Under the pieces are notes generated by a model, which was not told the DNA's origin, ran no database searches, and saw only the letters and a program-made list of their open reading frames with translations. This document shows, in pieces, positions 2 through 30,523 of a DNA stretch of 43,052 nucleotides. A program made the position numbers and the translations under genes. The DNA is from Desulfobacca acetoxidans (GTDB lineage Bacteria; Desulfobacterota; Desulfobaccia; Desulfobaccales; 0-14-0-80-60-11). Each line of letters begins with the position of its first letter. Position 1 is the stretch's first letter. Location of the stretch: NCBI GenBank assembly GCA_020722205.1, contig DYLF01000002.1:56141-99192 (forward strand). Reading direction: 5' to 3'.

Positions 2-1681
2 CTTTGGGATAAGGTGAGCATTAAAGCCAGTTACCAATCCCGTTATAGCAGCGGCTATGCCAGCAATCGGGTGACTCGATCGGCCAGAGCCGGCGCGGCA
101 GCGGTGCAGACTGTCGGCTGGCAGCCAACCAATACCACCACCGGTCAACCCACTTCCATCATCGGCGATCCCGGTGACCAATCATGGTATAACGCCTCTT
201 TCAGCGGCAAGCTGAGGTGGGATATCGCCCCGGGGCACAAAGTCAATTTCTACGTGCAACTGGCATGGAATGAGTACGGTTATAACACCTGGCACACTTA
301 TCTGCGGAATGTGGCTACCGGTGACCCTGTCTTTGCCGGTAATGCCGGCCTGTTCGGCACCGGCTTGCGGTTCACTGGGCTGCGTGAGGCTACCTTCCTC
401 TCTGGTAGTAACGATAGTCGGGTCCACACGGCCATCTATAATTTCAGCAGCGAACATAAAATAACTGACTCCACTAACCTCAAGTGCCGAGTCGGTTTGA
501 TTAATCAGCCTCACAACTGGTACACCACCCCCAGCTCCATTAACCCCAAAACTACTATTTCCGGCGGTCCTGGCTCCCTGAGCACTTCCCCCAGTAAGGT
601 GTGGAATTTTGAGCTTCAGATGGAACAGGCCTGGGGCAGCAAACAATGCTGGACCGCCGGGTTGGCTTACAAGACCGGCGCCGCCTGGTCTAAAGAGTAC
701 AACTTGCTCCACTGGCGCGACCCTGACTCCAAACTTGATCTGACAAGGTTTTCCCAGGGACGCGATCGGAACCTCGGGTTTTATCTGCAGGATGAAATCA
801 ACTGGCACCCAAAGTTCTCCACCATCATCGGGGCCCGCCTCGACTGGTGGCAGACTTATGGGGGCGTTTACCGAGCTTCCGTTAACGACCCTACCATTTC
901 CTTGCCCGCCCGTAGCCAAGCCTCATTCAATCCCAAAATTGCCTTTCTTTACCGCCCATGGGACTGTTGGTCTTGGCGGGCGTCGGTGGGCACCGCCTTC
1001 CGGCCCCCCAACATCTATGAGCTTTACCGCACTTGGCGCAGCTCTAATGGTACGCTTTACCAGGGCAATCCCAACCTCAAACCGGAACGGGTGTTGGCCT
1101 GGGAAGTGGGCACCACCCTTAAGCCCTGGTCCGGCATGGTCCTCACCGCCACCTTCTTTGACAACTATTTCGATGACCTGATTTATTCCGTCAATGACCC
1201 CGCCGACCCCACAGGAAGGAGCAAAATCCGCACTAATGCCGCCAAGGCCCGGATTATGGGGGTGGAACTGGAAGCCAACCAAAAACTCAACTCTTGGCTG
1301 GATGTCTTTGTCAATACCACCCTGCTCGATCCGCGGATCAAAGAAAACCCCCTCAATCCGGCTTCCGAAGGGAAAAACCTCACTTTCGTGCCGCGACAGC
1401 AGTTTAATTTCGGCCTCAATGCCAACTATTGGATATTCAATGCTAACCTGGCTGGCCGCTATTTCAGCCGCCTCTATGCCAAAGACGACAACTCCGACAT
1501 TTACAAAGGGGTTTACGGCTCCTATGACCCCTTCTTCACTTTGGACGGCAAGATCACTGCCACCCCGGTGAAGTATCTGCGCCTCTCCTTTGCCGTGGAT
1601 AACATGCTGAATCGTCAATACTATTTCTACGGCCTCACTCCTGGCCGCACCTTCTGGTTGGAGGCCGCCCTGAAGTACTAA
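2..1681 (+). CDS. TonB-dependent outer-membrane receptor, C-terminal part (5' truncated by window)
   Basis: The frame is open from the first bases through the GTG at 14, so the gene starts upstream and only about 559 C-terminal residues are visible. The product is a run of alternating hydrophobic and polar strands rich in aromatic residues. It contains receptor hallmarks such as a RPPNIYELY segment near residue 340, LKPERVLAWEVG just after it, and a last strand ending in an aromatic residue (ALKY), as expected for BAM-assembled barrels. The plug domain and TonB box are outside the window. The family imports iron-siderophore, haem, cobalamin and similar ligands across the outer membrane using proton-motive force. 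The downstream ExbB-like, ExbD-like and CobN-like genes suggest a metallo-tetrapyrrole ligand (haem or corrinoid), but the barrel alone does not show which. Confidence 0.9.
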   Translation, partial: LWDKVSIKASYQSRYSSGYASNRVTRSARAGAAAVQTVGWQPTNTTTGQPTSIIGDPGDQSWYNASFSGKLRWDIAPGHKVNFYVQLAWNEYGYNTWHTYLRNVATGDPVFAGNAGLFGTGLRFTGLREATFLSGSNDSRVHTAIYNFSSEHKITDSTNLKCRVGLINQPHNWYTTPSSINPKTTISGGPGSLSTSPSKVWNFELQMEQAWGSKQCWTAGLAYKTGAAWSKEYNLLHWRDPDSKLDLTRFSQGRDRNLGFYLQDEINWHPKFSTIIGARLDWWQTYGGVYRASVNDPTISLPARSQASFNPKIAFLYRPWDCWSWRASVGTAFRPPNIYELYRTWRSSNGTLYQGNPNLKPERVLAWEVGTTLKPWSGMVLTATFFDNYFDDLIYSVNDPADPTGRSKIRTNAAKARIMGVELEANQKLNSWLDVFVNTTLLDPRIKENPLNPASEGKNLTFVPRQQFNFGLNANYWIFNANLAGRYFSRLYAKDDNSDIYKGVYGSYDPFFTLDGKITATPVKYLRLSFAVDNMLNRQYYFYGLTPGRTFWLEAALKY

Positions 1682-1697
1682 AGACGAACTCAAACTT

Positions 1698-1715
1698 CCG
1701 GCCGTGTTCGGCCGG
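1698..1715 (+). other. Intercistronic hairpin between receptor and DUF2162 gene
   Basis: A perfect 6-bp inverted repeat, CCGGCC with GGCCGG, encloses a 6-nt loop. It lies 16 bp after the receptor stop codon and ends 10 nt before the GGAGG ribosome-binding site of the next gene. No T-run follows, so it is not a classical terminator. It may stabilise the receptor mRNA end or reduce expression of the inner-membrane genes relative to the receptor. Confidence 0.5.
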
Positions 1716-1736
1716 TGCAACCGATGGAGGCAACCA

Positions 1737-2504
1737 ATGGATCTGACTCTGATGCTCTGGCTTGGGGGTATGTTTTTCAGTCTGGCCGTATTTGTCGTCA
1801 AGGTCGGCTGCGGCCTGGGCTGGGGACAACTGCGGTGGCCCCTGATAGTGCTGACTCTCTCCCTTTACTCAGGACTCTTTATCCTGGCCGCGATCTTTAG
1901 CCGAAGTCTATTAAAGGTCCTGCAGCCGGTACTGCAGCACGGACCATGGCTGCACTCCTTCATGGCTGTGGGGATGATGGCTTGGGGGATTTACCTCCTG
2001 CTCCGGTCGCCGGCTAGCTCCTGCTGCGGCCTCCCCGGGCAGAAGGCGGGGAACTCCACCCCAAACCACTGTTCCCCTCCGGTAAATAGCGCATTGTTCC
2101 TCTTACTCCTGCCCTGCCCGGTCTGCCTGACAGCTATTATCTTCTCCACCTGGGCCGCCTTGCAGGTCTTTAAATGGCCAAGCTGGCTCGTGGGCGTGGG
2201 CCTGGGGCTGACTTTCGCAGCTTTGACGCTCGTGGCCTGCCTTATCCTTCGCCTCTCCAGCCGGCGGGCTACTAAATTGGCCCAAAACAACGTCCTGGCC
2301 CTCAGTCTCTTGGGCATCGGGGCTTATTTCTTGGCTTCGCTGTTTATCCCTGGCCGCATTGAAGCTGCCCGGAGCATTTACCACTCCTTTATTTCTGACC
2401 ACACTGGCCCGGGGCTCAGCGATCAATTGGGGATTTTGACCATCCTGGCGATTGCCCTGCTCGTGGGCTTCGTCACGAAGCAAAACCATAAGGTGCTGAA
2501 ATGA
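1737..2504 (+). CDS. DUF2162-like polytopic inner-membrane protein (putative transporter)
   Basis: This 255-residue protein is very hydrophobic, with about six predicted membrane helices (roughly residues 3-20, 27-50, 65-85, 118-140, 148-172, 185-205, and one near the C-terminus). I chose the ATG at 1737 because GGAGG lies at 1726-1730; the frame also opens further upstream at 1704 without such a site. A PCPVC motif (Cys127 and Cys130) sits at the start of a central membrane helix, and a Cys-Cys pair (96-97) lies in the preceding loop. The layout matches the DUF2162 predicted transporters that I recall beside ExbB-like, DUF2149 and CobN-like genes in methanogens and other anaerobes. Its stop overlaps the next start (ATGA). 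A role in moving metal or tetrapyrrole across the inner membrane, or in redox work through the CPVC cysteines, is inference. Confidence 0.72.
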   Translation: MDLTLMLWLGGMFFSLAVFVVKVGCGLGWGQLRWPLIVLTLSLYSGLFILAAIFSRSLLKVLQPVLQHGPWLHSFMAVGMMAWGIYLLLRSPASSCCGLPGQKAGNSTPNHCSPPVNSALFLLLLPCPVCLTAIIFSTWAALQVFKWPSWLVGVGLGLTFAALTLVACLILRLSSRRATKLAQNNVLALSLLGIGAYFLASLFIPGRIEAARSIYHSFISDHTGPGLSDQLGILTILAIALLVGFVTKQNHKVLK

Positions 2505-3112
2505 ATATCCTGGCCGGCCTGGAGACCTTCTTGTATGTCATTGCCTCCTCTCTATTTTATCCGGTGATTATCGCCTTGTTACTTCTCACTTTCTGGATTG
2601 TCATCTGTGCCGGCGGCCTGCTGCGGGAGTATCTGGACCGCTACCAAGGACAATTCATGTGGGTGAAATACTATCAGGAACACCTTGGTAATCTGGCGTC
2701 TTCCGACACCACGGACCTAAAACTATCTCGCCATCTGCAGAAAATTGAACTGGAGATGGTCAAGAGCCTCAATAAAGTCAGGTTTGTCATCCGGGTCGGC
2801 CCCGCTCTTGGGCTGATGGGCACTTTAATCCCCATGGGAATTGCCTTGGCCGCCTTGGCCCAAGGTGACATGCCCAAAATGGCCGGCAGCATGGTGACGG
2901 CCTTTACCACCACCGTCGTCGGGCTGGCCTGCGGCGTGGCGGCTTATCTCATGGCTTTGGTCAAAGAGAAGTGGGTACGGGCCGATATGGCAGAATTGGA
3001 ATATCTGACCGAACTCCGACTGCGTCAACTGGGTGCTCCCCCCTCACCGGGGCTGGCCTCAAAGGTGGAAGCCGATGACAATGAGATGGCGGCAGAGAAG
3101 ACAGCGTTTTGA
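2501..3112 (+). CDS. MotA/TolQ/ExbB-family proton channel subunit
   Basis: This 203-residue protein has an N-terminal membrane helix (about 13-38), a cytoplasmic stretch, then the family signature GLMGTLIPMGIA near residue 105. The last helix is rich in Thr and Gly (VTAFTTTVVGLACGVAAYL). ExbB/TolQ proteins form a pentameric pore that, with an ExbD/TolR dimer, converts proton flow into mechanical work. The ATG overlaps the upstream stop by 4 bp and the downstream gene begins inside this one, so translation is probably coupled. No tonB gene is visible next to it. The channel probably energises the dedicated receptor or the CobN-like protein of this operon rather than serving as the general TonB motor, though that is inferred from position. 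Confidence 0.88.
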   Translation: MNILAGLETFLYVIASSLFYPVIIALLLLTFWIVICAGGLLREYLDRYQGQFMWVKYYQEHLGNLASSDTTDLKLSRHLQKIELEMVKSLNKVRFVIRVGPALGLMGTLIPMGIALAALAQGDMPKMAGSMVTAFTTTVVGLACGVAAYLMALVKEKWVRADMAELEYLTELRLRQLGAPPSPGLASKVEADDNEMAAEKTAF

Positions 3113-3419
3113 AAGTTATGATTCACCCTTGGAGGACCCCATCTCCGGGGTGGCAAATCTTTTCGATGCCAGTGTGGCTTTTATTGTCAGTATGATGATC
3201 GCCCTTTTCATGGCCTACAACCTCCTGGACTTGGTCGACCCCAAGTCCGAGGTCACTATCACCAAGAAAAGTGCCGATGGCCAGTTGGAAATCATCACCA
3301 AAACCGGCAAGGAAGTTAAGGTCCAGAAGGTGACCGATAAAAGACTGAGCGGGGAGGGCGTCCGCCTGGGCACCGCTTATCAGCTCAAAGATGGGCGGGT
3401 GATTTATGTGCCCGATTAA
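3075..3419 (+). CDS. DUF2149-like small membrane protein, ExbD-like topology
   Basis: This 114-residue protein has a short basic N-terminus, one membrane helix at about residues 29-50, and a C-terminal extracytoplasmic domain of about 65 residues ending DGRVIYVPD. I chose ATG 3075 because AAGGTGG lies 6 nt upstream; ATG 3081 is a close alternative, and the GTG at 3033 lies deep inside the ExbB-like gene. Asp31 stands at the start of the membrane helix (NLFDASVAF), the position of the essential proton-carrying Asp in ExbD/TolR. Size, topology and place after an ExbB-like gene all suggest the ExbD/TolR partner role. The domain resembles DUF2149, which has no established function. It overlaps both neighbours (38 bp upstream, 14 bp downstream). 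Confidence 0.75.
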   Translation: MTMRWRQRRQRFESYDSPLEDPISGVANLFDASVAFIVSMMIALFMAYNLLDLVDPKSEVTITKKSADGQLEIITKTGKEVKVQKVTDKRLSGEGVRLGTAYQLKDGRVIYVPD

Positions 3420-6400
3420 ACAAATTAATCATTTCCACCTCCTTCGGCCCTTTTGCCTGGGATGGACTCTCTTTTGGTGGGTTCTGCTGGCTCCCGCCCC
3501 CGGCGCTGCCGACAAATTGCATGTCAGCCTCCTGCTGGGTGATCTGCCCACCAAAGCTGCCTTGGAAGCCGTCCAGGATATTTACCGGGCTTATCCCCGG
3601 CTCAGGCATCGCCTAGCCTTCCATGTCTTCCCTCACCTGCAGCCTCACCGCCGCCCGGCCGATTTGCCCTCCCTTAAAAATTCACGGCTGGCCTTCATCA
3701 TGATTATGGGGCGCGATATGGTTGAAGCCGCCAAACCCGAACTCAGGGAGGCCATCCAAAAAGGCGGTGTGGTTTATTACGTTATGGGAGGCTCTTACAA
3801 CGACGAGGATAAGGCCCTGGGTATCAAGTCAGACCCTCAATTGCAGGAATATTTCAGCGAAGGCGGAAAGGAAAATATCAAAAACGGCTTACTGTTGGCC
3901 ATCAAGCGCGACCTCGCGCTGCCCGTCACCTACAAGCCGGTGGCCAAGATTCCTGAGGCCGGCATCTATGAGCATCGCACTAAAAAGGTTTATCCTGATT
4001 TTGCCGCCTTCCTAAAAGGTTACTCCGCCTACCGTCCCGGGGCGCCGTGGATCGGCGTAATCTTTTATAAATCAAACCTGGTCAACGGCCAGACGAAACC
4101 TTTGGAGGCGGTGATTCAGAGCCTGGAAGAGGCCGGTTTCAACGTCCTGCCTGCCTATGCTCCCCTCGGCTATGATCTCCGTAAATTCTTTTTAGAAGAA
4201 GGGGGGCCCTCAGACTCAGAAAACCGCCCGGAAGCAAAGCAGTCTGTTTCACCTCCAACCAGCCGCAGCCGGGTGCGGGTCGTGGTGGCTTTGGGACTCA
4301 AAATCGGCATTATCCCGGAACAACTGGATCCCCAACTCCAAGCTTTGCATGTCCCCATCATCGACGCCATTTCGCTATACAGTCATTCCCGGGAGGAGTG
4401 GGAAAAGTCTCCCGTCGGCCTTGACTTGTTTGAACGCTCCTTCCAGATTGCCAACCCGGAAATGGCCGGCATCATCCAGCCGACGGTCATCGCTTCACGC
4501 GAAAAGAAGGCTGATCCAGCCACTGGCTTGACTTATATCGAAAGCCTGCCCCTGCCTGAGCGGGTGCAGCGCCTGGTGGCGCGGATCAAGGCCTGGGTCA
4601 GACTGCAAGACAAACCCCACCGGGAAAAAAAGATTGCCCTGATTTATTATAACTATCCGCCCGGCAAGAATAATATCGGCGCCTCCTACCTTAATGTGCT
4701 GCCCGAAAGTCTGTGGGAAATCTTCCTCCACCTGGAAGCCCAGGGCTATGAGACCGGCCGCCGGCAAGCCCGTGACCGGGGGATCACTCTCAGCAAGCAG
4801 CAACTATTTGACGATATCGTGCAATTCGGCCGCAACCTCGGCAATTGGGCGCCGGGAGAATTGGCTGAGCTGGTGCGCCGCGGTGACAAAGTTTTTTCCC
4901 CTGGCTTGCCTGCCCCGGGCTACAACCGTGGTCCGATACTTATTCCGGTGGAAACTTACAAGAAGTGGTTCAATAAGTTGCCGCCGGCCTTTAAAAGAGC
5001 CGTCCTGAAAAGCTGGGGGCCGGTGGAACAAAGCAACATCATGATCTGGTCGGCGAAGGACGGAAAAAAATACCTTGTTCTCCCTGCTGTCCGTTACGGC
5101 AATCTTCTCTTCACCCCCCAGCCCACCCGCGGCTGGGATCAGGATATAAAAAAAGCCTATCATGATGTCACGCTTGCCCCGCATCACCAATATGTTGCCT
5201 TTTATTTGTGGCTGAAATATGGTTTTCAGGCCGATGCCCTTGTCCATGTCGGCACCCACGGTACTCATGAATGGCTCCCTGGCAAAGAAGTCGGTTTTAC
5301 CGCCGCCGACCCACCGGAAATCCTTATTCAGGATTTACCCAATATTTATCCTTATATTGTTGATGACGTCGGGGAAGGTTTGCAGGCCAAAAGACGAGGC
5401 ATGGGAATCATCATTGATTACCTGACCCCGCCTTTGGCACCGGCCGGATTAAATAAAGAGCTGCAGGATTTAAAAAGTTTGCTGGATGAATACACTGTCG
5501 CCAAGGAAAAAAGCGGGCCGTTAGCGGCCGGCAAGCTGGAGGAGATTAATGAACTGGCCACCAAGCTCGGCGTTCTGACAGACCTTGGTAAGAGTGAACT
5601 GAAAACTGAAGATGAAGTGGAAGAACTGGAACATCATCTCAAAGAGATCGGGGAAAAACAAGCCCCCTACGGCCTCCACACCTTTGGTTGTTCTCCTACC
5701 GAGGATCTCCGGCGCAGCACCGCGGCTGCCGTTGTGGATATCGAAAAGGACCTGACGCCGGAGGAGCGGGCCCGACGGCTGGCGGACCTGGAAAATCGTC
5801 TGCAACGCTCCGGACCTCGGGAGTTGGCCAATTTCGCCGCCGCCTTGGCCGGTCGCTACATTCCGGCCGGCCAGGGCAACGACCCTCTCCGCAACCCGGA
5901 TTCCCTACCCACTGGCAAGAACTTCTACGCCTTCGATCCTACTCGCATTCCCTCTCCCAAAACTTATCAACTCGGGGTCAAGCTCGCCCAGGAGCTGCTC
6001 GCCGCCTATCAGGCCAAGCACGGCACTCTGCCGGATAAACTGGCCTTCAATCTCTGGGCCGTGGAGACTATCCGCCATGAAGGCGTCATGGAAAGTCAGA
6101 TTATGCATCTTCTCGGCATCCGACCACGCTGGAACCACCGGGGCCGGGTGATGGGAGTGGAAGCCATTCCCCGCAAAGAACTCACTCACCCCCGTCTGGA
6201 TGTCATCCTCACCCCCTCCGGGCTCTATCGGGACCTCTTCCCCAATCTTCTGAACCTCCTGGATCAAGCCGTCACTCTGGCCAAACAACAGCAGGAGGCT
6301 GACAACATCTTGCGCGCCAACATCCTGCGCACCAAACAACAGCTCCTGGAAAGGGGAGTGCATGTGGAGCTGGCCGAGAGGTTGGCCACGGTGCGTCTTT

Positions 6401-7536
6401 TTACCACCCCCCCAGGCGCCTATGGCCCCAATCTGGATAATGTCATCAACCAATCCCACACCTGGGAAAAGGAACAGCAGGTGGGGGAGGTCTATCTCAA
6501 GCGTCTCGGCCACCTTTATGGGCAAGGTTTTTGGGGCGACAAGGCAACCTTTCCCACCAAAAATAATCCTCAGGGCGAAGACCTGAGCCTGATGCTGTTT
6601 AAAAATGCCCTCTCCGGCAGCAAAATGGCCCTGCACAGTCTCTCCTCCAACATCTTCGCTACCCTTGATAACGACGATTTCTTCCAGGACCTGGGCGGCC
6701 TGGCCATGGCCATTCGCCTCCTGGACGGCAAGACTCCCGAGGTTTATGTGACCAACCTAGCCAATCCTAAGGCCCCCCGGCAAGAAACTCTGGCCCGGGT
6801 CATGGGGCAGGAATTGCGCGCCCGCTATCTCAATCCGACCTGGATCAAGGCCATGCTTAAAGAAGGTTATGCCGGTGCCCGCTTTATGGACAAGGTGGTG
6901 GAACACCTTTGGGGGTGGCAGGTCACCGTGCCCGAAGTTGTCGATGCCGCCAAATGGCAGCAGATGTACGAAACCTTGGTGGTGGACAAATACGGTTTGG
7001 ACATCAAAAAGTTGTTCCAGCAGGCGCAGAATCTCTGGGCCTACCAATCCCTGATAGCTCGGATGTTGGAGACCATCCGCAAAGGCTATTGGCAACCCGA
7101 CCAAACGGTAATCGAAAACCTGGCCCGGGAATTCGCCGACAATGCGCAAGAGGTCGGTATGGCCTGCTGCGACCACACCTGTAACAATCCGTTGTTGCTC
7201 GATTTTACTCGCGCCGTGCTGTTGTCCGTCCCCGGCTTGGCCCCCCAGGCCGAAGCCTTGCAGCAGGCCATCGAGGCGGTAAAAAATCCGGCCGCCGCAG
7301 CCAAAAAAGCTGCTGTCGCCCTCGGGCAGCTCAAACCGCCTCCCACCGCCGCTCCGTCCGATCAACCCCAGCCCACCAAGGTCGAAAAGCAGGTGGAAGG
7401 CTACGAAATGCAAGAAGTCAACCGCTCCGGCTTGACCAGCGCACCCATCCCATACCTGTTTATCTTGGGTTTTTTGGGTATCCTGTTACTATTGCGTCTC
7501 GGCTGGCGTCAAGTCGGGACCATCAGAAAAAAATAA
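3406..7536 (+). CDS. CobN/HmuS-like chelatase with signal sequence and C-terminal membrane anchor
   Basis: This 1376-residue member of the CobN/BchH chelatase large-subunit family is recognised by the signature HVGTHGTHEWLPGKEVG (His614 onward), the usual length, and many CobN segments such as HRGRVMGVEAIPRKELTHPR. Unlike cytosolic CobN, it begins with a basic stretch, a hydrophobic core (FCLGWTLFWWVLLAPAPGA) and a likely signal-peptidase site near Ala-Ala-Asp. It ends with a Pro/Lys-rich linker, a single membrane helix at about 1345-1364 and a basic tail. The bulk should therefore face the periplasm. A CCDHTC motif lies at 1254-1259. The ATG overlaps the upstream gene by 14 bp and has only a weak ribosome-binding site, so translational coupling is likely. 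No CobS, CobT, ChlI or ChlD subunit is encoded nearby. HmuS of Bacteroidetes haem-uptake loci is the best-known comparable protein. Substrate and direction (metal insertion or removal) cannot be read from sequence. Confidence 0.88.
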   Translation: MCPIKQINHFHLLRPFCLGWTLFWWVLLAPAPGAADKLHVSLLLGDLPTKAALEAVQDIYRAYPRLRHRLAFHVFPHLQPHRRPADLPSLKNSRLAFIMIMGRDMVEAAKPELREAIQKGGVVYYVMGGSYNDEDKALGIKSDPQLQEYFSEGGKENIKNGLLLAIKRDLALPVTYKPVAKIPEAGIYEHRTKKVYPDFAAFLKGYSAYRPGAPWIGVIFYKSNLVNGQTKPLEAVIQSLEEAGFNVLPAYAPLGYDLRKFFLEEGGPSDSENRPEAKQSVSPPTSRSRVRVVVALGLKIGIIPEQLDPQLQALHVPIIDAISLYSHSREEWEKSPVGLDLFERSFQIANPEMAGIIQPTVIASREKKADPATGLTYIESLPLPERVQRLVARIKAWVRLQDKPHREKKIALIYYNYPPGKNNIGASYLNVLPESLWEIFLHLEAQGYETGRRQARDRGITLSKQQLFDDIVQFGRNLGNWAPGELAELVRRGDKVFSPGLPAPGYNRGPILIPVETYKKWFNKLPPAFKRAVLKSWGPVEQSNIMIWSAKDGKKYLVLPAVRYGNLLFTPQPTRGWDQDIKKAYHDVTLAPHHQYVAFYLWLKYGFQADALVHVGTHGTHEWLPGKEVGFTAADPPEILIQDLPNIYPYIVDDVGEGLQAKRRGMGIIIDYLTPPLAPAGLNKELQDLKSLLDEYTVAKEKSGPLAAGKLEEINELATKLGVLTDLGKSELKTEDEVEELEHHLKEIGEKQAPYGLHTFGCSPTEDLRRSTAAAVVDIEKDLTPEERARRLADLENRLQRSGPRELANFAAALAGRYIPAGQGNDPLRNPDSLPTGKNFYAFDPTRIPSPKTYQLGVKLAQELLAAYQAKHGTLPDKLAFNLWAVETIRHEGVMESQIMHLLGIRPRWNHRGRVMGVEAIPRKELTHPRLDVILTPSGLYRDLFPNLLNLLDQAVTLAKQQQEADNILRANILRTKQQLLERGVHVELAERLATVRLFTTPPGAYGPNLDNVINQSHTWEKEQQVGEVYLKRLGHLYGQGFWGDKATFPTKNNPQGEDLSLMLFKNALSGSKMALHSLSSNIFATLDNDDFFQDLGGLAMAIRLLDGKTPEVYVTNLANPKAPRQETLARVMGQELRARYLNPTWIKAMLKEGYAGARFMDKVVEHLWGWQVTVPEVVDAAKWQQMYETLVVDKYGLDIKKLFQQAQNLWAYQSLIARMLETIRKGYWQPDQTVIENLAREFADNAQEVGMACCDHTCNNPLLLDFTRAVLLSVPGLAPQAEALQQAIEAVKNPAAAAKKAAVALGQLKPPPTAAPSDQPQPTKVEKQVEGYEMQEVNRSGLTSAPIPYLFILGFLGILLLLRLGWRQVGTIRKK

Positions 7537-7556: not shown

Positions 7557-8093
7557 TTAATACTCGATGCCAGCTCGCGCCCGCACCCCAGCCTGTAAAT
7601 AATGCTTCACCGGCCGCATTTCCGTGACCAAATCCGCCAGCTCCAAAAGTTCAGGTGGGGCTTTGCGGCCGGTAAGTACTACCTCCACGTGCAACGGGCG
7701 CTCTCGGAGAACCTCCAGCACCTCGGCCAAGGGGAGCAGTCCAGAGGCCAAGACCAGATTAATTTCATCTAAAATGACCAGATCGTGTTTACCCGCCGTG
7801 ATGACCCGGCGGCCCAGATTCCAGGCTTCCTTGACAAACTGAAGGGTTTCCGGCGACGGGGAGCGCAGCTTTCCCACTCCCGGCCGCCCGAAGGAGAGCA
7901 GACTGAACTCCGGGGACAACCGAGTCGCGGCCTGACTTTCCCCGGTTTTCCGCCCCTTGAGGAACTGGATGACATAAACTTTCAGACCCTGCCCCACGGC
8001 CCGCAACCCCAATCCTAGCGCACAGGTGGTCTTCCCCTTGCCCTCCCCGGTATAAACTTGAATCTGACCCTGGAAAGTCCGCTCGCTTTTCAT
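7557..8093 (-). CDS. btuR: Corrinoid adenosyltransferase (BtuR/CobO/CobA family)
   Basis: This 178-residue enzyme transfers the 5'-deoxyadenosyl group of ATP to reduced corrinoids, giving adenosylcobalamin-type cofactors in the cytosol. The P-loop GEGKGKTT at residues 16-23 directly follows the QVY strand, as in CobA. VIQFLKG, LVILDEIN and VVLTGR follow in the family order, and the C-terminus ends near RAGIEY. I chose ATG 8093 because GAGG lies about 7 nt upstream and family members start about here; the frame runs open to 8207 without homology-like sequence. The gene converges on the CobN-like gene with a 20-bp gap and has its own promoter, so it is not in the same operon. Its closeness still raises a corrinoid reading of that locus. 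Confidence 0.93.
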   Translation of the reverse strand: MKSERTFQGQIQVYTGEGKGKTTCALGLGLRAVGQGLKVYVIQFLKGRKTGESQAATRLSPEFSLLSFGRPGVGKLRSPSPETLQFVKEAWNLGRRVITAGKHDLVILDEINLVLASGLLPLAEVLEVLRERPLHVEVVLTGRKAPPELLELADLVTEMRPVKHYLQAGVRARAGIEY

Positions 8094-8175
8094 ATCCCAA
8101 CCTCGGATTCTTGGCCGTCCCGATATATTGACTTTAGTATGGATTTTTTTACAATTCACTACAGAATCTAATAAA

Positions 8176-8204
8176 ATTATAAGCCTTCCCAAAGCTGAGA
8201 CCAA
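8176..8204 (-). promoter_or_regulatory. Sigma-70 type promoter for btuR
   Basis: Read on the minus strand, TTGGTC (8204-8199) is separated by 17 nt from a perfect TATAAT (8181-8176). The expected transcript start is near 8169, giving a leader of about 75 nt before the ATG at 8093. I looked for a cobalamin-riboswitch B12 box in this leader and saw none. Confidence 0.6.
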
Positions 8205-8294
8205 CACGCTCCCTGATTATTTCCAAGCCTGCCAATCTTTCGTTTGCCACCCCCAATTTTAATAAGTTAAAATGGCATCCGATATTAATTAATC

Positions 8295-16199: not shown

Positions 16200-16272
16200 G
16201 GGCCCATAGCTCAGTGGTCAGAGCAACCGGCTCATAACCGGACGGTCCCTGGTTCGAATCCAGGTGGGCCCA
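16200..16272 (+). tRNA. tRNA with CAU anticodon (elongator Met or Ile2)
   Basis: The 73-nt sequence folds as a cloverleaf with a 7-bp acceptor stem GGGCCCA/TGGGCCC, discriminator A, D-arm GCTC/GAGC, T-arm loop TTCGAAT, and an anticodon loop CTCATAA with CAT at 16233-16235. The 27-43 pair of the anticodon stem is an A-A mismatch. CCA is not encoded. The short D-loop and overall body look closer to the Ile2 isoacceptor (which TilS would convert to lysidine at C34) than to elongator Met, but I cannot settle this by eye; it is not an initiator type. Confidence 0.93.
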
Positions 16273-18710: not shown

Positions 18711-19075
18711 GCGGCGTCGGTCAGATGATCGCCGGTCGGTATCCAGACCGGCCGGAGGAAAGTCCGGGCTCCACAGGGCAGGGTGCTGGGTAATACCCAG
18801 TGGGGGCGACCCCAAGGAAAGTGCCACAGAAACCAGACCGCCGTGGTTCGCCCACGGTAAGGGTGAAAGGGTGAGGTAAGAGCTCACCAGTGTCGGTGGC
18901 GACGCCGGCAGCTTGGAAAACCCCACCTGGAGCAAGACCAAATAGAGGAGCGCCTGAGAGTGGCCCGCTCGAGCTCCCGGGTAGGTCGCTTGAGCCCGCG
19001 GGAAACCGAGGGCCCAGAGGAATGATCATCACCGGAGATATCCGGCACAGAACCCGGCTTATGGCCGGCGCCGTT
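18711..19075 (+). ncRNA. rnpB: RNase P RNA, bacterial type A
   Basis: The catalytic RNA that matures tRNA 5' ends is recognised by the conserved core GAGGAAAGTCCGGGCTCC near the 5' side, CCACAGAAA, GGTAAGGGTGAAA, GAGCAAGACCAAATAG, AGAGGAATGATCATC and ACAGAACCCGGCTTA, in the proper order and spacing. The ends were set by P1: GGCGTCGGTC (18713-18722) pairs along its full length, with two G-U pairs, to GGCCGGCGCC (19063-19072). Seven Ts follow immediately, so P1 plus this run may also terminate the transcript. The gene lies between the zinc-ribbon gene and surE on the same strand. Confidence 0.97.
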
Positions 19076-19115
19076 TTTTTAGCACCGCTGACACACCAAA
19101 AGGTGTCGCTTTCTT
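19074..19115 (+). terminator. T-run after RNase P P1 and a following weak hairpin
   Basis: TTTTTTT at 19074-19080 directly follows the 3' strand of P1. A second element, ACACC-AAAA-GGTGT (19093-19106) followed by TTTCTTTTT, lies just beyond and may act as a back-up terminator. Confidence 0.6.
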
Positions 19116-30450: not shown

Positions 30451-30523
30451 AGCGGGCAACGGGATTCGAACCCGCGACACCAAGCTTGGGAAGCTTGTAC
30501 TCTACCAACTGAGCTATGCCCGC
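30451..30523 (-). tRNA. tRNA-Gly (CCC anticodon)
   Basis: The 73-nt gene folds as a cloverleaf: acceptor stem GCGGGCA/TGCCCGC, D-arm with AGTTGGTAGA, anticodon stem CAAGC/GCTTG around TTCCCAA (CCC at 30490-30488), T-loop TTCGAAT, discriminator T. CCA is not encoded. It has its own promoter and is followed by a structured tail and a terminator. Confidence 0.95.

Follow-up and report, generated by a model that had tools for sequence, protein, structure and literature searches.

A B12-Riboswitch-Linked Operon of Desulfobacca acetoxidans with an Exported CobN-like Chelatase, ExbB and DUF2149: A Candidate Proton-Driven System for Cobalt Tetrapyrroles

Introduction

The hmuYRSTUV locus of Bacteroidota (PMC12583661, PMC10434189) is among the closest described relatives of the operon reported here, which lies at positions 2–7536 of a 43,052-nucleotide stretch of Desulfobacca acetoxidans DNA (assembly GCA_020722205.1, contig DYLF01000002.1, positions 56,141 to 99,192 of the forward strand; the whole stretch is called the window below). 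In both, a TonB-dependent receptor, an exported and C-terminally anchored CobN-like enzyme, ExbB and DUF2149 are encoded in one operon. The hmu enzyme, HmuS, is an envelope protein that removes metal and serves iron supply, with His538 and His1209 opposed in the active site and Met79 and His254 binding a second haem (PMC12583661). The window operon differs in having DUF2162 in place of HmuT, a B12 riboswitch and cobalamin neighbours, in the absence of HmuY (as judged from gap-free relatives), and in Asp and Ile at the places of His1209 and His254.

The BtuS and riboswitch-bearing hmu-like operons (PMC6460266, PMC10100974) also share features with the window, namely an exported CobN-like protein and, for B. 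fragilis NCTC 9343, a B12 riboswitch. Likened by description, they are probably of the same kind, though they are mentioned in passing for Bacteroides, without a proposed motor role. For the B. fragilis operons a link to haem was considered improbable (PMC10100974), and Rodionov 2003, according to PMC6460266, proposed that BtuS proteins act in metalloporphyrin salvage. The HmuS/BtuS kind is, in this sense, already known, and the window operon is a variant of it.

The cluster on pSZ77/pGLOV01 of Trichlorobacter (Geobacter) lovleyi (PMC3403914) has the same receptor-DUF2162-ExbB-DUF2149-CobN order behind riboswitches, and its CobN is 55% identical to that of the window; it differs in carrying its own exbB-exbD-tonB within the same operon. 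That study did not tell ExbB-DUF2149 apart from ExbB-ExbD and left the role of CobN unassigned. The large subunits of the CobNST and ChlH/BchH-ChlI-ChlD chelatases are homologous to the window CobN and contain the conserved His motif, but these enzymes are soluble, cytoplasmic and driven by AAA+ ATPases, whereas the window CobN is exported, anchored and linked to ExbB-DUF2149. With the TonB-ExbB-ExbD energiser, the operon shares the proton-channel domain of ExbB (PF01618).

Operon Structure and Cobalamin Setting

A tightly overlapping operon of five genes had been proposed in the initial annotation, and this was borne out by the Pfam matches, all of which lie above cut-off, and by the frame overlaps. 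The genes stand in the order TonB receptor, DUF2162, ExbB, DUF2149 and CobN-like chelatase, as shown in Table 1. Because the frames overlap by 4–32 nt from DUF2162 onward, the four genes from DUF2162 to CobN are very likely co-transcribed. The likely starts of DUF2162 and DUF2149 were judged from homologue alignments, and the DUF2162 frame has an alternative opening at 1704. The assembly has a gap of 100 Ns immediately before window base 1, so the 5′ end of the receptor gene is missing, and neither plug nor signal was observed. The best NCBIfam match of the receptor is a sub-threshold one to the haemoglobin/transferrin class, and its cargo could not be read from the NCBIfam matches.

Alignments revealed the conserved motifs GPALGLMGTLIPMG ... 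AFTTTVVGL in ExbB, one transmembrane (TM) helix with an invariant Asp (NLFD) and a small periplasmic beta-rich domain in DUF2149, and the invariant PCPxC of DUF2162 inside a helix. The AlphaFold model of DUF2162 (pLDDT 82) found no convincing match in the PDB (Foldseek E above 0.5), and the best VIA Z, 8.1 to MFS-like transporters, is within the tool's stated noise.

The 16 kb upstream of the window on the same contig were examined as well. A cobalamin riboswitch (RF00174, 117 bits) lies 218–405 nt upstream of window base 1, and upstream of it is the gene cluster cbiK-cbiA-cbiC-cbiL-cbiD-cbiET-cbiF-cbiG-cbiH, itself behind a second riboswitch; five cobalamin riboswitches were found in the genome in all. 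The pathway genes are of the anaerobic type with early CbiK, and not of the aerobic type with late cobalt insertion. Since CbiK, the only match to its family, has no signal peptide and would be cytoplasmic, cobalt is expected to be inserted early and a late CobNST chelatase would not be needed. From its setting, the operon looks tied to cobalt and vitamin B12 supply, not to haem.

Topology and Active Site of the CobN-like Protein

Signal peptides and TM helices were judged by hydropathy in place of dedicated predictors. On this measure, the CobN-like protein, encoded by the only CobN-family gene of the genome (DUF2149 is likewise present once), has a signal-peptide-like start at about residues 1–35 and a C-terminal TM helix at about residues 1345–1366. 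The protein contains the full CobN/Mg-chelatase domain (PF02514) of class I chelatases, including the catalytic histidine of HxGxHG, and the His motif of this superfamily is kept in nearly all members.

In comparison with HmuS, His618 corresponds to His538, and Asp1091 replaces His1209 in a well-aligned region; Gln stands for Glu1212, and Ile for His254 where the head/neck alignment is less sure. At the place of His1209, the solved CobN structures have Asp, while ChlH and HmuS have His, so that the Asp of the window points to a corrin-type over a porphyrin-type pocket. In the tree, the window protein falls inside an envelope CobN clade (85–86 rows, support 97–99), and HmuS is a long branch outside it.

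Some soluble CobN-like proteins linked to ChlD (L174, L175, L177 and L183) have the HmuS-like motif DLDHYYEF and are perhaps ATP-driven porphyrin chelatases or de-chelatases in the phylum. Receptor-ExbB-DUF2149-CobN-like operons of Chitinophaga, Sphingomonas and Pusillimonas (L106:9888, L133:9467 and L146:9904, respectively) have lost the catalytic His and kept ExbB-DUF2149; this branch is probably non-chelating.

A true hmu operon, from a Bacteroides finegoldii plasmid (L035), contains HmuY, HmuR, HmuS, HmuT, ExbB and DUF2149; its HmuT has no Pfam match, and no cobalamin riboswitch was detected there with Rfam. At the window locus, too, a CobN-like gene and a TonB receptor are accompanied by ExbB (HmuU) and DUF2149 (HmuV), but the HmuT position is taken by DUF2162 (2e-49), and HmuY was seen neither there, where the 100-N gap precedes the receptor, nor in relatives without a gap, for example L034 and L048. 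In a gammaproteobacterial metagenome-assembled genome (L138:2684-10004), receptor, CobN, ExbB and an HmuV-like DUF2149 occur together, the CobN has the His and Glu of HmuS (NHHFYEYL) and a riboswitch is absent; this may be a haem-type system beyond Bacteroidota.

Distribution in Relatives and Partner Genes

Gene calls in relatives were based on single-sequence searches and open reading frame (ORF) finding. Of the 297 phylum genomes, 33 have DUF2149 above cut-off, and the receptor-DUF2162-ExbB-DUF2149-CobN set recurs at these loci in varying order. A cobalamin riboswitch was observed by Rfam just upstream in 20 of the 24 phylum loci with a visible operon start, the four without being L042, L045, L056 and L058. 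A search of named genomes with an ExbB profile gave 79 loci, most with ExbB-DUF2149-CobN, from Thermodesulfobacteriota, Myxococcota, Nitrospirota, Verrucomicrobiota, Pseudomonadota, Bacteroidota, Planctomycetota, Deferribacterota, Poribacteria and a methanogen. The block thus recurs in many phyla, far beyond chance, and is not unique to this genome, a point that the initial annotation had left to a synteny search. In Duganella/Massilia, a cobalamin riboswitch stands directly before ExbB-DUF2149-CobN, with no adjoining receptor or DUF2162. The Rfam scan covered part of the loci outside the phylum; a sequence-only riboswitch profile missed divergent Duganella riboswitches that Rfam found, and its absences were not counted.

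Further neighbours in relatives include CobO, cobT and bzaF, and CbiK is an extra gene in several envelope CobN operons. An exported BtuF-CbiZ fusion was called in 29 of 116 envelope loci, both domains being confirmed in two. Apparent DUF2162-ExbB fusions in L053, L061, L064 and L066 turned out to be out-of-frame ORF extensions.

The partner genes of CobN-family proteins were mutually exclusive. Among 92 matches in the 297 phylum genomes, ChlD lies within 9 kb of 38, DUF2149 within the same distance of 25, both near none and neither near 29 (Fisher p 1e-7, which is only a guide as related genomes are not independent), and several genomes hold one ChlD-linked and one DUF2149-linked CobN. Neither ChlI nor ChlD was found in the 116 envelope CobN loci. 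The window CobN follows this division: it is not a soluble, cytoplasmic protein with a CobS/CobT or ChlI/ChlD gene, and no CobS/T-type partner, which would have spoken against the initial annotation, lies beside it. A ChlD-like gene of the same genome was dropped as a possible partner, being on another contig, among unrelated neighbours and in the wrong compartment. A C-terminal TM helix was observed in the DUF2149-linked CobN proteins, two contig-truncated rows apart, and in none of the soluble CobN, BchH or fetched ChlD-linked CobN controls.

The arrangement extends to archaea. DUF2149 is present in 23 of 41 genomes of the family of a Methanothrix genome, and in seven of nine fetched archaeal loci ExbB-DUF2149, with or without DUF2162, share the stretch with a CobN that has hydrophobic segments at both its N and its C terminus. 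The envelope CobN open frames of this family (L193-L200) have 1500–1850 residues, and in several of them the signal-like stretch is followed by an additional repeat-like region at the N terminus (FTTFQGDNQRTGNVSG...LLWST). In a joint tree, the envelope types, archaeal ones and HmuS included, are separated from the soluble types by a branch with support 100, the exception being one long-branch soluble Marinobacter row at the unresolved base. The simplest reading is an old envelope chelatase family that may have swapped its ATP motor for a proton motor.

Feature List and Other Loci of the Genome

CobO, which closes the list of protein genes in Table 1, is a convergent neighbour that belongs to the cobalamin setting and lies outside the operon. 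A TonB gene is absent from the operon; that of the genome sits with its own ExbB-ExbD on contig 169. A separate corrinoid operon (contig 43:1654-8667, L205) encodes a receptor (two ORFs), an exported BtuF-CbiZ fusion, BtuF, BtuC and BtuD. One of the five cobalamin riboswitches, at contig 43:9356-9542, lies upstream of it, and the existence of this operon weakened the idea that the window operon is the genome's only corrinoid importer.

Table 1. Positions of the operon genes and other features within the window.
Feature	Position	Strand	Match
TonB-dependent outer-membrane receptor, barrel only	2..1681	+	PF00593 9.4e-49
DUF2162, predicted inner-membrane transporter, invariant PCPxC	1737..2504	+	PF09930 2.2e-49
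ExbB-type proton-channel protein, DUF2149-linked kind	2501..3112	+	PF01618 (MotA/TolQ/ExbB) 8.8e-13
DUF2149, ExbD-shaped	3081..3419	+	PF09919 6.1e-30
CobN-like class I chelatase, exported, C-anchored	3406..7536	+	PF02514 1015 bits
CobO corrinoid adenosyltransferase	7557..8207	-	PF02572 2.5e-58
RNase P RNA class A	18713-19076		327 bits
tRNA gene	16200-16272	+	
tRNA gene	30451-30523	-	

Discussion

We tentatively favour, as plausible though far from settled, a periplasmic chelatase driven by the proton motive force (PMF), repressed by B12 and processing imported cobalt tetrapyrroles, most likely for cobalt recovery. When cobalamin is scarce, the riboswitch would permit expression of the operon, and the receptor, powered by the separate ExbB-ExbD-TonB set, would bring into the periplasm a cobalt tetrapyrrole (most likely a corrinoid), which the inner-membrane-anchored CobN-like enzyme would bind there. 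Since the periplasm has no ATP, a proton motor would stand in for the AAA+ ATPases: proton flow through the ExbB-DUF2149 stator pair would drive the conformational work that ATP-fuelled ChlI/ChlD or CobS/CobT perform in the cytoplasm. The likeliest reaction would be cobalt release, after which DUF2162 may pass the cobalt into the cytoplasm, where CbiK would use it in making new cobamides.

Corrinoids or cobalt are suggested as the target by the B12 control and the CobN-like pocket, and by the neighbouring cobalamin genes, CbiZ and CbiK. BtuC is common beside cytoplasmic CobN and rare beside envelope CobN, a contrast that suggests two parallel designs, ABC import with cytoplasmic ATP-dependent processing or periplasmic processing by PMF. 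Removal with DUF2162 as the metal path is favoured because HmuS removes metal (PMC12583661) and because a methanogen CobN1, perhaps of the envelope type, is produced under nickel limitation alone (PMC12350162); both are relatives that respond to a shortage of metal, HmuS to that of iron. We infer the corrinoid substrate, the direction of the reaction and the role of DUF2162. The proposal of the initial annotation that ExbB/DUF2149 energise the chelatase in place of ATP-driven ChlI/ChlD or CobS/CobT is supported well, though indirectly, by the 38/25/0 split, the envelope loci free of ChlI/ChlD, the archaeal pairs and the separate ExbB-ExbD-TonB set.

Several points weigh against this picture. 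Cobalt in corrin is very inert, and we know of no enzyme that removes it. The BtuFCD/CbiZ operon on contig 43 handles corrinoids, so the cargo of the window operon could differ, and 29 of the 92 CobN matches have neither partner nearby. Some soluble ChlD-linked CobN-like proteins carry the HmuS-like His, so the pocket reading calls for caution, and because the catalytic His is absent in L106, L133 and L146, not every member can be a chelatase. Kinship of DUF2149 with ExbD appears weak: hhalign gave E 0.067, with the two TM Asp aligned, and the AlphaFold model of DUF2149 (pTM 0.34) matched nothing in the PDB convincingly (Foldseek E above 0.5). The energy coupling, like the physical contact of ExbB-DUF2149 with CobN, is one that we infer, and HmuS takes the metal out of haem in vitro even when HmuU/HmuV are absent (PMC12583661).

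An unlikely alternative, although the best of those weighed, is PMF-driven corrinoid transfer without chelation, in which CobN would be a corrinoid-binding arm and ExbB-DUF2149 and DUF2162 would move the intact corrinoid inward, with no need of BtuCD. It is consistent with the neighbours BtuF-CbiZ, CobO, cobT and bzaF, which fit corrinoid salvage, with the retention of ExbB-DUF2149 in the branch without the catalytic His, and with BtuC, which lies beside soluble, cytoplasmic CobN in 8 of 17 fetched phylum loci and beside envelope CobN in 7 of 116. Corrinoid transfer fits poorly with the genome's own BtuF-BtuC-BtuD set downstream of another riboswitch, with the chelatase-superfamily His motif kept in nearly all members, and with HmuS, the characterised relative, being a de-chelatase.

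It is rather improbable that ExbB-DUF2149 powers the outer-membrane receptor and that CobN works without energy input. This is the published assignment of HmuU/HmuV (PMC12583661, PMC10100974), and the kinship of ExbB, the TM Asp of DUF2149 and the turnover of HmuS without HmuU/HmuV agree with it. Methanogenic archaea have no outer membrane. Because such archaea keep the pair beside an exported CobN and this genome has a separate ExbB-ExbD-TonB, as does the T. lovleyi operon, the pair is unlikely to serve the receptor; its retention in Duganella operons without a neighbouring receptor and the exclusion with ChlD also argue against such a role.

Periplasmic insertion of cobalt into metal-free or damaged imported corrinoids, with PMF where CobNST uses ATP, appears less probable still. 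The active-site motif is CobN-like, and a similar idea was speculated for Chlorobi loci with a TonB receptor, CobN and BchHID (PMC8620254), but CbiK already inserts cobalt early, and the presence of DUF2162 and CbiK in the operons suggests that metal moves inward. Metal-free corrinoids are, to our knowledge, no abundant nutrient.

A haem de-chelatase of the Hmu type, the label given in the initial annotation, is very improbable and was set aside: HmuS is the best PDB match of the window CobN, ExbB and DUF2149 are common to both systems and the receptor's sub-threshold match is of the haemoglobin/transferrin class, but the B12 riboswitch and cobalamin neighbours, DUF2162 at the HmuT position, the lack of HmuY in gap-free relatives, the missing His254 and second active-site His, and the separate, well-supported clade with HmuS outside all stand against it.

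Returning to the proton-driven chelatase, a broader and more doubtful possibility is that ExbB-DUF2149 acts as a motor for class I metallochelatases in general, an envelope counterpart of ChlI-ChlD/CobS-CobT in bacteria and archaea, HmuS included, with the window branch extracting cobalt from corrinoids outside the cytoplasm. If true, ExbB-type stators would drive a metal chelatase besides TonB, Tol and flagella, and the recently solved haem de-chelatase HmuS would gain an obvious candidate for what powers it. It would then be an error to assign HmuU/HmuV-type genes to the outer-membrane receptor, and a B12-controlled route of cobalt acquisition, widespread in anaerobes and soil bacteria, would be added.

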